From contig OX442418.1 of assembly GCA_949361645.1 (NCBI GenBank), positions 6,780,372 through 6,844,371 of the forward strand: a stretch of 64,000 nucleotides of DNA. Reading direction: 5' to 3'. A program made the translations under genes and the position numbers. Position 1 is the stretch's first letter. Each line of letters starts with the position of its first letter. This document shows, piece by piece, positions 4,613-16,190 of this stretch. The notes under the pieces were generated by a model. That model was not told where the DNA came from. It did no database searches and worked only from the letters and a program-made list of their open reading frames with translations. The stretch is from Spongilla lacustris. Its lineage: Eukaryota; Porifera; Demospongiae; Spongillida; Spongillidae.

Positions 4613-7600
4613 CAGGGTGTCCACGAATGAACGCAACGCTTTTGATTGTGAATAACTTTTGATAGGATGGAGCAAAAAATCTGATATTTTGAAACAGAGT
4701 TGGTCGGTTTCCTCAAATTTTTTTCCATTAATTTAATTAATACATTATTTATTATGCTAATTAATTTTAATAAGCACAACAAATTAACTAATTTAAAAGT
4801 TCGTCTGTGTTCAGGTATCGGTTATGAAGCTTCGATCAAAATATTGGATTTTTTCCACCTACTAAACTGAAACTACGATCCACTGCCTATTTTTCTTCGC
4901 ATACGCATGCGCACACGACCTCGTCCTAAGACTTAATCTCGTGATTAAATCGCTGTTATAGTCACGTGATAATACGGAGGCGGATCTTTAATCACTCACC
5001 CACCTTCTAGTGGGTGTCACATCACGTGATACAATTCGAAGGCGGATGCAACTCCGTTGCATATGCCCCACCTCCTACGTGGGTGTTGCGAGTCCAGCCT
5101 TCCTCTAAGCTAATTATCCATGTTTACAAGCATCGAATGTGGTGCGCCTCAATTAGCACAATCGCACAGAGAGGCAATGAACGGTGTGGTACGTATGGAT
5201 TGATATGCGGTGCCATTCTGTGAGTTAGTGAATCTGAGACGCACACACGCGGGTTAGTAGACACGCAAAAATGAAATGTAAGAATTGATCACATACCTTC
5301 CAGCTCTCTCAGAGCTAATAGCCTATACCAGCATCTCAAGCAGCACGCAGTAACTTGTGCGCAGACCTGATTTTGTCTCATAGCTAGGCTACATGTATAT
5401 CGCTGTGTCTACGGCTTAAAGAATACTTTTGTGTCATGTGAGTGCCATTTATGGAAGCCTCGTACCATCCATATGTGAAGGGTCAGTGAGCATTCAAGCC
5501 TCCATCTAAGGGTGTGCTTTCATTTAAATTGTAACGTTGTGTGTTATTCTTTCAGTAAAAAATAACGGAATAGGTATGGGGAAAGTTCCAGTTTTAAAGA
5601 AAGACCTGTGTGCTTTGCAATCATGATGTGAGCTACCCTTAGTTATTGCTGGTTTTAGATGATAGTGTGCACAAATTCTGTTACTTAGGGTGAATTTATT
5701 TTAAAGCACTAACAAATGTTGCAAACCTCCAGCAAGGTTTTAGATGATTTGTTTAAAGAGAAGCTGTGCTTTACTTTCAATGCTCCATTTTTTGAAGCTC
5801 GTGTATGGATGATATCATGGAAAGTGTGCCATTTAAAGATAGGGTGCATGTGCTTTAATTTCAATGCATAAAATTTTGAGTCTCTAAGCTAGATACCTCG
5901 TTTTAAATAACAAACCTGTGTGCTTGCATCAAGTTGTAGCTATTTCCGTATCATAATGTTTTTAACCTTTGCTTATGGATATCTGTTACTTTATGCTTGA
6001 CAGCCTAATATTGCAACCTACCAGTTAGGATTGGGGAAAGATTAATCATGTAGGGACAGACTGTAGTATTTAAGTGAGTCGTGTTTTTATGTTAGGGGCC
6101 GATGCTTTCGTTTTAGAGTATCAGCTCATGTGTCAAGATGATTTCATGGAAAGAGTACTAGTGCCATTTAAAGATAGGGTGTGCTTTAATTTCAGTGCAT
6201 GACACATGGGTAGGCTCTCTTATTTAGGAAATGCCTATAGATCTAGTTGTGATTTGAAGTGCTTTAGTATCAACTTGCATCGTGATGTGGGCCTCTTGGC
6301 TAGTTCCAGATCATGTTCTTAAATTATGCTTTAACAGACTCCTTTGTTATGTCGCAGTGTTTTAAAGCATTGAATAATGTTTACAGCTTCCAGCAAGGTT
6401 TAAAATGTTTGGGAAGATAGCTGTGTCTTAAGACAACAATTACATGCATCATGTTGTGGTCCTAGCTCTTAGCTACATGTAGTTCTCAGATGTTGCTATA
6501 ATGAAATGGACTTTAGGAGATCCCTGTTGTGATGTTGCAAGCCTCCTGCTAGGTTTTGGATGGTTGGATATAAGTGTGGTGCATGTCCTTAGATCAATAA
6601 TATTGTGAGACTTTTAGCTACTCAGTACTGTGTCACCAAGTCAATGTAGAGTACTCTCTGCTTTAAGAGACTCAGGTGTTACATGTGTATGTGTGCTTAG
6701 AAAGGCTCTGTGTTCTTGAAAATGTATGTTAAAGCTACAAATTACATATGTAGGAACTGTAGAGTATTGGCTGTTTTAAGAAAGAGATGTTGTGAGCAAT
6801 TTAGCTAATTACAAGTTCCCTGGACATTGTGCATGCATGTGAGCACTAAGTATCTGAGGGTATGCTTTAATTTCATACCATCCAGTTATGTGTTTGCCAA
6901 AAGGGTTGAGCATACTGTTAAAGTATGCACTTGTAAAACTTCTGGCTAAATGAGGGTGTGCTTTTATTCAAATGTTGTGAGCTTCATGGTGTGTGTGTGT
7001 GTGTGTGCGTGTGTGTGTGTGTGTGTGTGTGTGTGTGTGTGTGTGTGTGCATGTGCGTGTATATGTTATTGATGGTAGAGTCTCTGTTTTAAAAACCTCT
7101 GGACTGTTGTTATGGGAGGATTGATTTCATTTTTGGTTACAAGCCTCCAGCTAAGTTTAAGATGTGTATTTTTCATAGAGTTGTCGTTGCATCATGATCA
7201 GGTTGTGATTGAGCCATGTAGCTAGTTCAATATCATAATGTTTGTTATTGCATATGCTTTAAGGCCCACTTATTTTAAGTGACTCATGTCTTTATGTCAT
7301 GGTGTGCTTATCAACTCAATTGTGTCAAACTTTCAGCTAGATTTTGAAATGCCACTTTATAAGAGAAGGAATGCATCATGTAGCAAGTTCGCATTTCATA
7401 GTTGGACCAACATGTGGGTAGATTCATTTGTTTTGTTATGTGAGCTTTCAATCCCTGGCCCTGACCAGTAAAGTAATATTTGCACAAAATGATTGTGCAT
7501 GCTGCTGAGGTATGAAAACTGCTGTGTTAAATGAGGGTGTGCTTTCATTGAAAATGTAAAGTTGTGAGCTTCAAGCTGTGTGTTGCTGTACATGTAAGTT

Positions 7601-8900
7601 TTAGCTAGATGGTTGGGGAAGGTTGCTTCCATATCATAGTGTGGGCTGTTCTTTATATCAAGCTGCTTAAAAAAATTCCTGTTGTAATGTTAGGGAATTT
7701 ACTTTCATTTTTAAGCATGGCAAATGGTATAAGCCTCCAGCAAGATTTTAGATCATTTGTTTTAAGAGAAGGTGTGCTTTATTTTCAATTCCCACCCCAG
7801 ATCCTTTTTTGGTGCTTATGAATGGATGGGCTCTCTTCTTCTTAAATGCATGACTCAGACGAGCCTTGTTGTGATAAGAAGGAGTGTTTTAATAAAAAGT
7901 AGATAATGTTACAAGCCAGCAGTTAGGTTCACAATGCTTGGATTTAAGAGCGGTGCATGACATTGTTTCATGTTACAAGCCGTTAGCTAGTTCCCAGGTT
8001 ATGGTGGGCATCATATTTTTATGTGCTTTCATTTCATGGCATTGAGTGATGTAATATGTTGCATAAGGTAAATGTGCATGTTGTTGAAATATTTGTTTGA
8101 GGGTAATATGTAATATTTCTTTTTAAAAGAGAAGCCTAGGTTTTACATGGTTGTGAAGAAAAGAGGTGTGCTTTGCATGATGATGTTAGCCTCTTAGCTA
8201 GCTCCCAGATCACAAATTGTGCTTTTGTTTATGTTGAGAGTATGCTCTTTTATTTAAGACAATCACGTTGTACATGTATGTTAAGGAGTGCTTTCATTTC
8301 AGAGTATATGTGTTGAGCCTCTAGCTAGGTGTTAGATGATTTGGAAGACTGCTGTGTTAAGAGGAGTGCTTTAGTTTGAATGCATCATGTTGCAATCCAA
8401 TATCCCAGTCTGTTGCTTATGTATGAGTATTTATCCTATTTAAGTTCTCCAACTCCATGAAAGGTTGTGCTTTTATTTCATAGCATCCAGTTATGCAATG
8501 TTTCCCAAGGTGATATGCTGTTGAAGTGCAATGTATGTGCTAAGAAAATCCCTGTGTTAAATAAGGGTGTGCTATTTATTGTAATATTGTGAGCTTCTAG
8601 CTTTAATTTGTGATTCCTTTTTAAAAATTACATGTAAATAGTAGTCTCTGCTTAAATTTATATCTGTATGAGTGGGAAGTGCCATTTTAAGAGAAGGTGT
8701 GCTTTGATTCATCACGTTGCCTACATGTATGTATGGGTAGACACTCTCTTCTTTAAGAGACTCCTGTTTTCAAGCATCACATTTTCGGATGATTAGATGC
8801 ATCATGTTGTGAGGTACCTAGCTGGTTTCCAGATTATGTACATAAATGGCTGCTTTGCTTTAAGAGACACTTGTGTGCATTCATTTCAAAGCTATCTGTA
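4613..8900 (+). repeat. left arm of the giant foldback
   Basis: About 4.3 kb. Beyond the first ~950 bp it consists of degenerate, irregularly spaced repeats built from recurring words such as GTGTGCTTT, TTTAAGAGA, GAGCCTCTAGCTAG and TTAAATGAGGGTGTGCTTTC. No coding frame longer than about 90 codons exists. The words are the complement of those in the right arm (AAAGCACACCCTCATTTAA). Pairing with the right arm fades near 8900; a weaker word-level symmetry continues to about 9690, where orientation flips. Confidence 0.85.
6988..7052. repeat. GT microsatellite in the left arm
   Basis: About 60 bp of GT repeats with two interruptions; it sits opposite the CA tract at 12780-12898 of the right arm. 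Confidence 0.9.
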
Positions 8901-14817: not shown

Positions 14818-16190
14818 TTAAATGGCACACTTTCCATGATATCATCCATACACGAGCTTCAAAAAATGGAGCATTGAAAGTAAAGCACAGCTTCTCTTTA
14901 AACAAATCATCTAAACCTTGCTGGAGGTTTGCAACATTTGTCAGTGCTTTAAAATAAATTCACCCTAAGTAACAGAATTTGTGCACACTATCATCTAAAA
15001 CCAGCAATAATTAAGGGTAGCTCACATCATGATTGCAAAGCACACAGGTCTTTCTTTAAAACTGGAACTTTCCCCATACCTATTCCGTTATTTTTTACTG
15101 AAGGAATAACACACAACGTTACAATTTAAATGAAAGCACACCCTTAGATGGAGGCTTGAATGCTCACTGACCCTTCACATATGGATGGTACGAGGCTTCC
15201 ATAAATGGCACTCACATGACACAAAAGTATTCTTTAAGCCGTAGACACAGCGATATACATGTAGCCTAGCTATGAGACAAAATCAGGTCTGCGCACAAGT
15301 TACTGCGTGCTGCTTGAGATGCTGGTATAGGCTATTAGCTCTGAGAGAGCTGGAAGGTATGTGATCAATTCTTACATTTCATTTTTGCGTGTCTACTAAC
15401 CCGCGTGTGTGCGTCTCAGATTCACTAACTCACAGAATGGCACCGCATATCAATCCATACGTACCACACCGTTCATTGCCTCTCTGTGCGATTGTGCTAA
15501 TTGAGGCGCACCACATTCGATGCTTGTAAACATGGATAATTAGCTTAGAGGAAGGCTGGACTCGCAACACCCACGTAGGAGGTGGGGCATATGCATACGG
15601 AGTTGCATCCGCCTTCGAATTGTATCACGTGATGTGACACCCACTAGAAGGTGGGTGAGTGCTTAAAGATCCGCCTCCGTATTATCACGTGACTATAACA
15701 GCGATTTAATCACGAGATTAAGTCTTAGGAGGAGGTCGTGTGCGCATGCGTATGCGAAGAAAAAAAGGCAGTGGATCGTAGTTTCAGTTTAGTAGGTGGA
15801 AAAAATCCAATATTTTGATCGAAGCTTCATAACCGATACCTGAACACAGACGAACTTTTAAATTAGTTAATTTGTTGTGCTTATAAAATTAATTAGCATA
15901 ATAAATAATGTATTAATTAAATTAATGGAAAAAAATTTGAGGAAACCTACCAACTCTGTTTCAAAATACCAGATTTTTTGCTCCATCCTATCAAAAGTTA
16001 TTCACAATCAAAAGCGTTGCGTTCATTCGTGGACACCCTGTATACATGACCCCCAAAACGCGAAGGTCGAGCTGATAGAACGGCTGATGTGGAGTAGCTA
16101 CCACATAATAGGTGTCACTACGAGAGTCGAGAGTACCCCGCTCGTTTAGCGGTTAATAAGATGCAAGGGCGATTCCGTCCCTATATATAT

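Follow-up and report, generated by a model that had tools for sequence, protein, structure and literature searches.

The genome of the sponge Spongilla lacustris (assembly GCA_949361645.1) contains, within a stretch of 64,000 nucleotides on contig OX442418.1 (positions 6,780,372 to 6,844,371 of the forward strand, in the following the window), an insertion whose two sides are inverted copies of each other over several kilobases. The insertion occupies positions 4613–16040 of the window, measures 11,428 bp and is of the Tc1/mariner type, being bounded by TA at both ends. This raises the question what kind of element it is, how it moves and how its two arms stay alike. We consider it highly probable that the insertion belongs, as a non-autonomous copy, to a cut-and-paste family of the Tc1/mariner superfamily (DD41D, rosa-like), that this family has Foldback architecture and that its arms are kept alike by sequence exchange.

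The TA dinucleotides of the target-site duplication are found at 4611–4612 and 16041–16042, so that the element ends given in a preliminary description of this DNA hold. Self-comparison and a profile of the internal repeat unit divide each arm into two parts. The left arm starts with CAGGGTGTCCACGAATGAACGCAACGC and has an outer domain without array units (4613–5496, plus strand), followed by an array of degenerate units of ~190 bp (5497–9624, plus strand) with 24 profile matches, all of them forward and thus facing inward. On the right side the array is reversed (9687–15155, minus strand; 19 matches, all on the minus strand) and is followed by the right outer domain (15156–16040, minus strand). 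The direction of the array switches between 9624 and 9687. The right array is broken up by two pieces. One is a remnant of the transposase gene, consisting of a promoter-like stretch recognised by its motifs (10445–10501, plus strand; CCAAT at 10445 and 10473, TATAAA at 10496) and of residues 1–59 of a 364-amino-acid transposase (10533–10709, plus strand; 42 open codons, then a stop). The other is a separate insertion of 1,023 bp (13795–14817) which lies outside the family; it is flanked by TTAA on both sides, has the inverted ends TGTACGAACG and, judged from the TTAA, is possibly a piggyBac-like non-autonomous element. The window copy carries only this transposase fragment and is non-autonomous. 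Capture of a coding gene by the element was rejected, as the window element and ten further copies with their flanks (stretches of N skipped) contain no ATG-started open reading frame of at least 150 amino acids.

The similarity of the arms decreases inward. In the self-comparison of the window, positions 4609–5836 and 14818–16044 are 99.1% identical over 1,229 columns and positions 5833–6275 and 13356–13794 are 96.2% identical; further inside, 6275–8770 matches 10787–13281 in diverged pieces (68–73%), with an additional out-of-register piece of 87 columns (84%). The inverted repeats of more than 4 kb that had been described at first are therefore correct as the extent of inverted homology, and the three point pairs sampled at that time (4.8/15.8, 5.6/15.0 and 8.7/10.8 kb) all lie within it, but high identity is confined to the outer ~1.66 kb.

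Each arm of the family thus consists of an outer domain of ~0.9 kb and an inward-facing array of the degenerate ~190-bp unit; long inverted arms, outer domain and internal tandem repeats together make up the Foldback-type architecture. The unit profile was built from arms of the family, namely from one left-arm stretch, and detects head-to-tail units in both arms of the copies C13 and C15, nearly all of them oriented inward from each end. While the window element has 43 matches, there are none in the remaining 52.6 kb of the window or in the reversed element used as control. Read inward, the array is rich in G and T. The unit does not appear to be coding, as its consensus has stops in all six frames. 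Neither is it supported that the unit is derived from the tip of the element or holds tip-like sites, since unit consensus and tip are no more similar than expected by chance (593 of 1,000 shuffled sequences reach this score). Arm stretches of two transposase-bearing copies also hold the unit (13 matches in L065, 6 each in L066 and L067, all facing inward). It had been proposed that a repeat array was captured and duplicated in inverted orientation. The inverted orientation of the array in the arms supports this in part, but a recent capture does not fit, because an element with transposase already has the array on both sides.

The window element has many relatives in the genome. Allowing up to three mismatches, the 29-bp tip is found 241 times in forward and 234 times in reverse orientation in the 248.6-Mb assembly, that is 475 times, with no match in the control. 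For the pairing of tips we used 100 of the 475, all exact and all from contigs C1–C11; 68 of these make up 34 inward-facing pairs which are 9,008–18,262 bp apart (median 12.3 kb). Shorter pairs are also present (5.9 kb on C9, ~3.7 kb on C20). If the 475 ends represent ~237 elements of this median size, the family would account for roughly 1% of the genome, which is an estimate on the upper side. No exact tip was found among bacterial and archaeal genome contigs or among viral contigs. Ten further tip pairs were read end to end, the copy on C11 including 2,500 N. In all 12 elements of which both ends were read, 11 non-autonomous copies including the window element and one transposase-bearing copy, TA is present at both ends, and in 11 of them the joined flanks have the sequence YATATR. 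Together with the near-identical copies C15 and C4b on different contigs, these results support that the element is mobilised as a unit, as had been suspected. The family is real and abundant and has transposase-bearing relatives. Furthermore, the transposase match ends at residue 59 in all 11 non-autonomous copies, and they therefore probably descend from one deleted founder.

Which protein could move these copies? A search with the remnant led to three loci with frames of 365 codons, and a search with the full-length protein (112 of 260 candidates scored) yielded four copies with 94–100% identity and without inner stops, as well as further groups at ~71–73%, 61–65% and 48–51% identity. At C14:2822475 a transposase of 364 amino acids lies within a tip pair spanning 14,405 bp, of which we read the terminal 2 kb on either side and a region of 3.1 kb with the gene. 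The outer 2 kb of both arms of this element are 99.1% identical to each other over 1,973 columns. Compared to the window arms they are 83–84% identical over the first ~0.4 kb and 66% over the next ~0.5 kb; deeper in, only short matching pieces remain (68–88%). On C6 a transposase of 376 amino acids is located between arms 14.3 kb apart; its N-terminus differs and its catalytic residues are in place. A pair of second-type tips (CAGGGTGTCTACGAAAGAACGC), 20.8 kb apart, encloses the transposase of 364 amino acids at C4:4010959. In the fourth copy (C2:3909928) a tyrosine replaces the third catalytic aspartate. The second-type tip has 79 pattern matches, 74 of which are one identical 24-base sequence, and forms 28 inward pairs at distances of 8.7–23.5 kb (median 16.4 kb), where the ends may overlap with the 475 counted above.

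In an alignment of three of these copies, one of them with mutated third aspartate, and 12 proteins chosen from 120 listed matches, 41 residues separate the second and the third catalytic position in all 15 rows, as is characteristic for DD41D. The protein scores 47 bits with DUF4817, which is over the cut-off and in line with a transposase of the superfamily with N-terminal helix–turn–helix, and it matches the catalytic domain of Sleeping Beauty at 1.6e-07. Among the best 120 of 1,061 protein matches, the identity reaches up to 91%; of the matches with a species name, those of Ephydatia muelleri, a freshwater sponge, are nearest with 69% (74% for a record with its locus prefix), and named arthropods have 31–37%. 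The protein comparison by itself thus makes a sponge the most likely host. Compact relatives were looked for next to three sister transposases, one each of the groups at 73%, 64% and 50% identity. Within ~345–360 bp on either side of them neither AGGGTGT, GGGTGTC or their complements nor the array unit was found, although a diverged tip could escape this detection; the ends of these sister elements were not located.

Six other transposases were checked for their upstream sequence: each has three to five CCAAT boxes in the preceding ~185 bp, and five of the six have an upstream TATAAA. Upstream CCAAT boxes and a TATAAA are common to the three sister transposases. In the window element the promoter-like stretch is located to the right of the switch in array direction and points outward; a transcript starting there would therefore cover the right arm only and could not fold back on the left one. 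The very long double-stranded RNA envisaged in the preliminary description has thus found no support so far, as the sole promoter-like stretch looked at faces outward through the right arm. For a hairpin RNA, transcription would have to enter the element from its surroundings, and that the element produces a long hairpin RNA is a guess.

These data suggest the following scheme. In full-length relatives, the gene for a transposase of 364–376 amino acids follows a CCAAT/TATA promoter-like stretch of its own. The lineage of the window element would go back to one founder which lost internal sequence but neither tips nor arms, and which the active transposase of its relatives would have mobilised in trans. 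The arms of one copy would be kept alike by gene conversion or template switching, for example on the occasion of repair after excision or in a cruciform, and such an exchange would reach inward as far as the arms still match. When unequal, it may add blocks to an arm and in this way lengthen it.

The proposed exchange can be judged from a comparison of the arms within and between copies. We denote the arm upstream of the transposase as U and the other arm as D and refer to a block map on the U arm of C15. In the window-type copies (window, C13 and C2b), the U arms lack a block of ~1.2 kb that D has and the D arms lack a block of ~2 kb that U has. Both blocks are present in both arms of five C15-type copies; C14 combines a U arm of the window type with a D arm of the C15 type, and C11 and C4c have rearranged arms. 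Up to ~3.6 kb, the two arms of each C15-type copy have an identity near 100%. In 250-bp windows the identity is 98.8–100% up to 3.5 kb, with one exception (94.4% in C10), and past the limit it falls to 88% at 4.0 kb and to 72–86% at 4.25 kb. The limit lies elsewhere in other copies, that is between 1.5 and 1.75 kb in C13, at 1.0–1.25 kb in C4c and, as described above, at ~1.66 kb in the window element.

In a tree of the first 3.55 kb of the five long-arm elements, strong support unites the two arms of C3, of C10 and of C2a, and C15 and C4b form a single group without inner resolution. The arms of one element differ at 1 position in C15, 9 in C10, 12 in C2a and 1 in C3, and in these four of the five elements every arm of another element is farther away than the partner arm. 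C3 is the clearest case: its arms have 1 difference in 3,550 positions and at least 23 to the arms of the other elements. In a tree of the outer 950 bp, both arms share one fork in 8 of 12 elements, three of these being identical pairs; the arms of the window element, C10, C15 and C4b are not paired by element. A deeper block (positions 2277–4236 of the reference arm; 17 of 22 arms, five with short matches being dropped) behaves differently, as the arms group by side, U with U and D with D, with one exception. Exchange therefore does not cover the whole arm, and homogenisation over the full arm length is rejected. As in most copies the outer parts of both arms go together, with a sharp limit, and the deeper parts group by side, the arms seem to be homogenised within elements. 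This pattern would be predicted for a within-element exchange which requires similar sequence and ends once the divergence of the arms becomes too large.

The grouping by side in the deeper block at the same time speaks against our interpretation, and so do several other results. The arm nearest to an arm of C4b belongs to C15 (5 differences, compared to 8 within C4b). Only 2 of the 8 within-element forks of the 950-bp tree have high values for both supports. When the outer 1 kb is compared, a strictly greater likeness within the element than to other elements is seen in 4 of 12 cases, and 4 more are ties; the window element and C4b score lower, and in C14 and C2b nested insertions distort the comparison. 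Polishing of the assembly could inflate the likeness of near-identical arms. Moreover, an exact partner is missing alongside 32 of the 100 listed tips, and the transposase reaches 23.5 bits with DDE_3, which is under the Pfam cut-off of 28.6.

Do the copies simply inherit two equal arms, which go back to a single old inverted duplication and diverged after transposition without any exchange? This would predict the largely separate clades of U and D arms in the inner block and is in agreement with the youngest copies (C15 and C4b) not being paired by element. On the contrary, the 1 versus at least 23 differences of C3 and the strongly supported pairing of C10 and C2a are difficult to understand in this way. 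Furthermore, the transposase-bearing element and the window lineage are 16–34% apart in the outer ~0.9 kb, and still each has outer arms that are ~99% equal. For the outer part of the arms a duplication without exchange is thus already contradicted, and as a general explanation we regard it as quite improbable. That the fold is an artefact, caused by a read folded onto its own complement, has next to no probability. Long inverted repeats are known to make assemblies fail; however, the eleven non-autonomous copies are located at different sites with TA flanks and different flanking DNA, and inner arms are not identical, neither in the window element (68–73%) nor in other copies. We therefore reject an assembly fold.

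The arms might also be a selected device, either as an RNA hairpin that manipulates silencing or as extra binding sites for the transposase as in Galileo. The long arms with the same array in two lineages of far-apart arm sequence would fit this idea, and secondary binding sites have been described for the tandem repeats of Galileo (PMC3573991). But the outward direction of the promoter-like stretch through one arm and the chance-level similarity of unit and tip argue against it, and such a device appears unlikely to us, though less so than a duplication without exchange. Going further than within-element exchange in a single family, one may ask whether the whole DD41D mariner group of this genome consists of giant palindromes of ~9–23 kb, in which symmetry, renewed by arm exchange, is a maintained trait that serves the element. 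We put this forward tentatively and rather doubt it.

How does the family relate to known systems? Apismar4.1 of the pea aphid, which is Crmar2-like, is a rosa-like DD41D Tc1/mariner element (PMC5490172). It has the 41 residues between the second and the third catalytic aspartate in common with the sponge transposase, and by eye the aphid rosa tip AAGGGTGTCTCAAAAAGAACGC matches the second-type tip at 18 of 22 positions. However, the three aphid rosa elements tabled in that source are compact (~1.3 kb with inverted repeats of 27–32 bp), and the family described here does not have this form, with tips ~9–23 kb apart and kilobase arms where they were read. Lengthened inverted repeats are known from other IS630-Tc1-mariner elements, namely the aphid LTIR DD40–41D elements (460–466 bp; PMC5490172) and Sailor, DD82E, from Lobosporangium (1,362 bp in an element of 6,979 bp; PMC8533490). 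The latter value is the longest for IS630-Tc1-mariner repeats in the literature that we compared. In contrast, near-identity reaches ~3.6 kb here, and an array is not mentioned for LTIR and Sailor in the parts of these sources available to us. For DD41D/VS elements (Visitor), whose catalytic spacing equals that of the sponge family by name alone, very long inverted repeats have been observed, without a length being stated in the text available (PMC8533490).

With respect to architecture, Galileo (P superfamily, Drosophila) is similar in its long repeats, in one group with internal tandem units of ~210 bp and in arms of one copy that are 98–100% alike, and arm growth by recombination has been proposed for it (PMC3573991). 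It differs by its P-type transposase, 7-bp duplications and repeats of up to ~1.26 kb; our family has neither a P-type THAP transposase nor 7-bp duplications. Tetris, a Foldback element of D. virilis, likewise has an outer domain and tandem units of ~220 bp in each arm. Its units are ~94% alike, compared to the strongly diverged ones here, and no transposase was found for it (PMC4079207). The preliminary description knew of no mariner family of this form, and among the papers listed by literature searches, which did not extend to Repbase or to most subscription papers, we saw no Tc1/mariner family with arms of several kilobases. Judged by sequence, the family is a Foldback-type DD41D mariner with kilobase arms.

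The window contains further repeats. Copies of another repeat family are found in both orientations at 16205–17858, 29974–30600, 42998–43824 and 46466–46694; they include a near-palindrome with arms of 375 bp (16205–17000) just beyond the mariner element. Positions 19617–20099 and 36908–37389 are ~480-bp inverted repeats (84%) at the two ends of a segment of 17.8 kb; both sides carry 21-bp tandem units and may bound another large element. At 54702–58014 lie remains of a retrotransposon of the BEL/Pao type, namely Pao peptidase, integrase zinc-binding domain and DUF5641, with a reverse transcriptase match just under the cut-off.

The family extends the Foldback architecture to the Tc1/mariner superfamily and goes beyond the ~1.4 kb of the literature compared. 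Instability and a tendency to deletion are expected of long palindromes. Nevertheless, hundreds of tips persist in this genome, and the outer arms are near-identical in the copies read. If symmetry were indeed a maintained trait of the whole DD41D group, arm sequence would turn over far faster than arm symmetry, with exchange renewing the symmetry in every lineage; the arms would then be partners in the repair that follows excision, a decoy for silencing or a platform for binding, and this mariner lineage would possess a distinct, self-renewing arm system. As transposase-bearing and deleted copies, several lineages and several arm lengths occur together in one genome, the growth and correction of the arms can be traced copy by copy. 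In addition, the family is a natural system, in an early-branching animal, in which to find out if long inverted arms supply small-RNA silencing or evade it.

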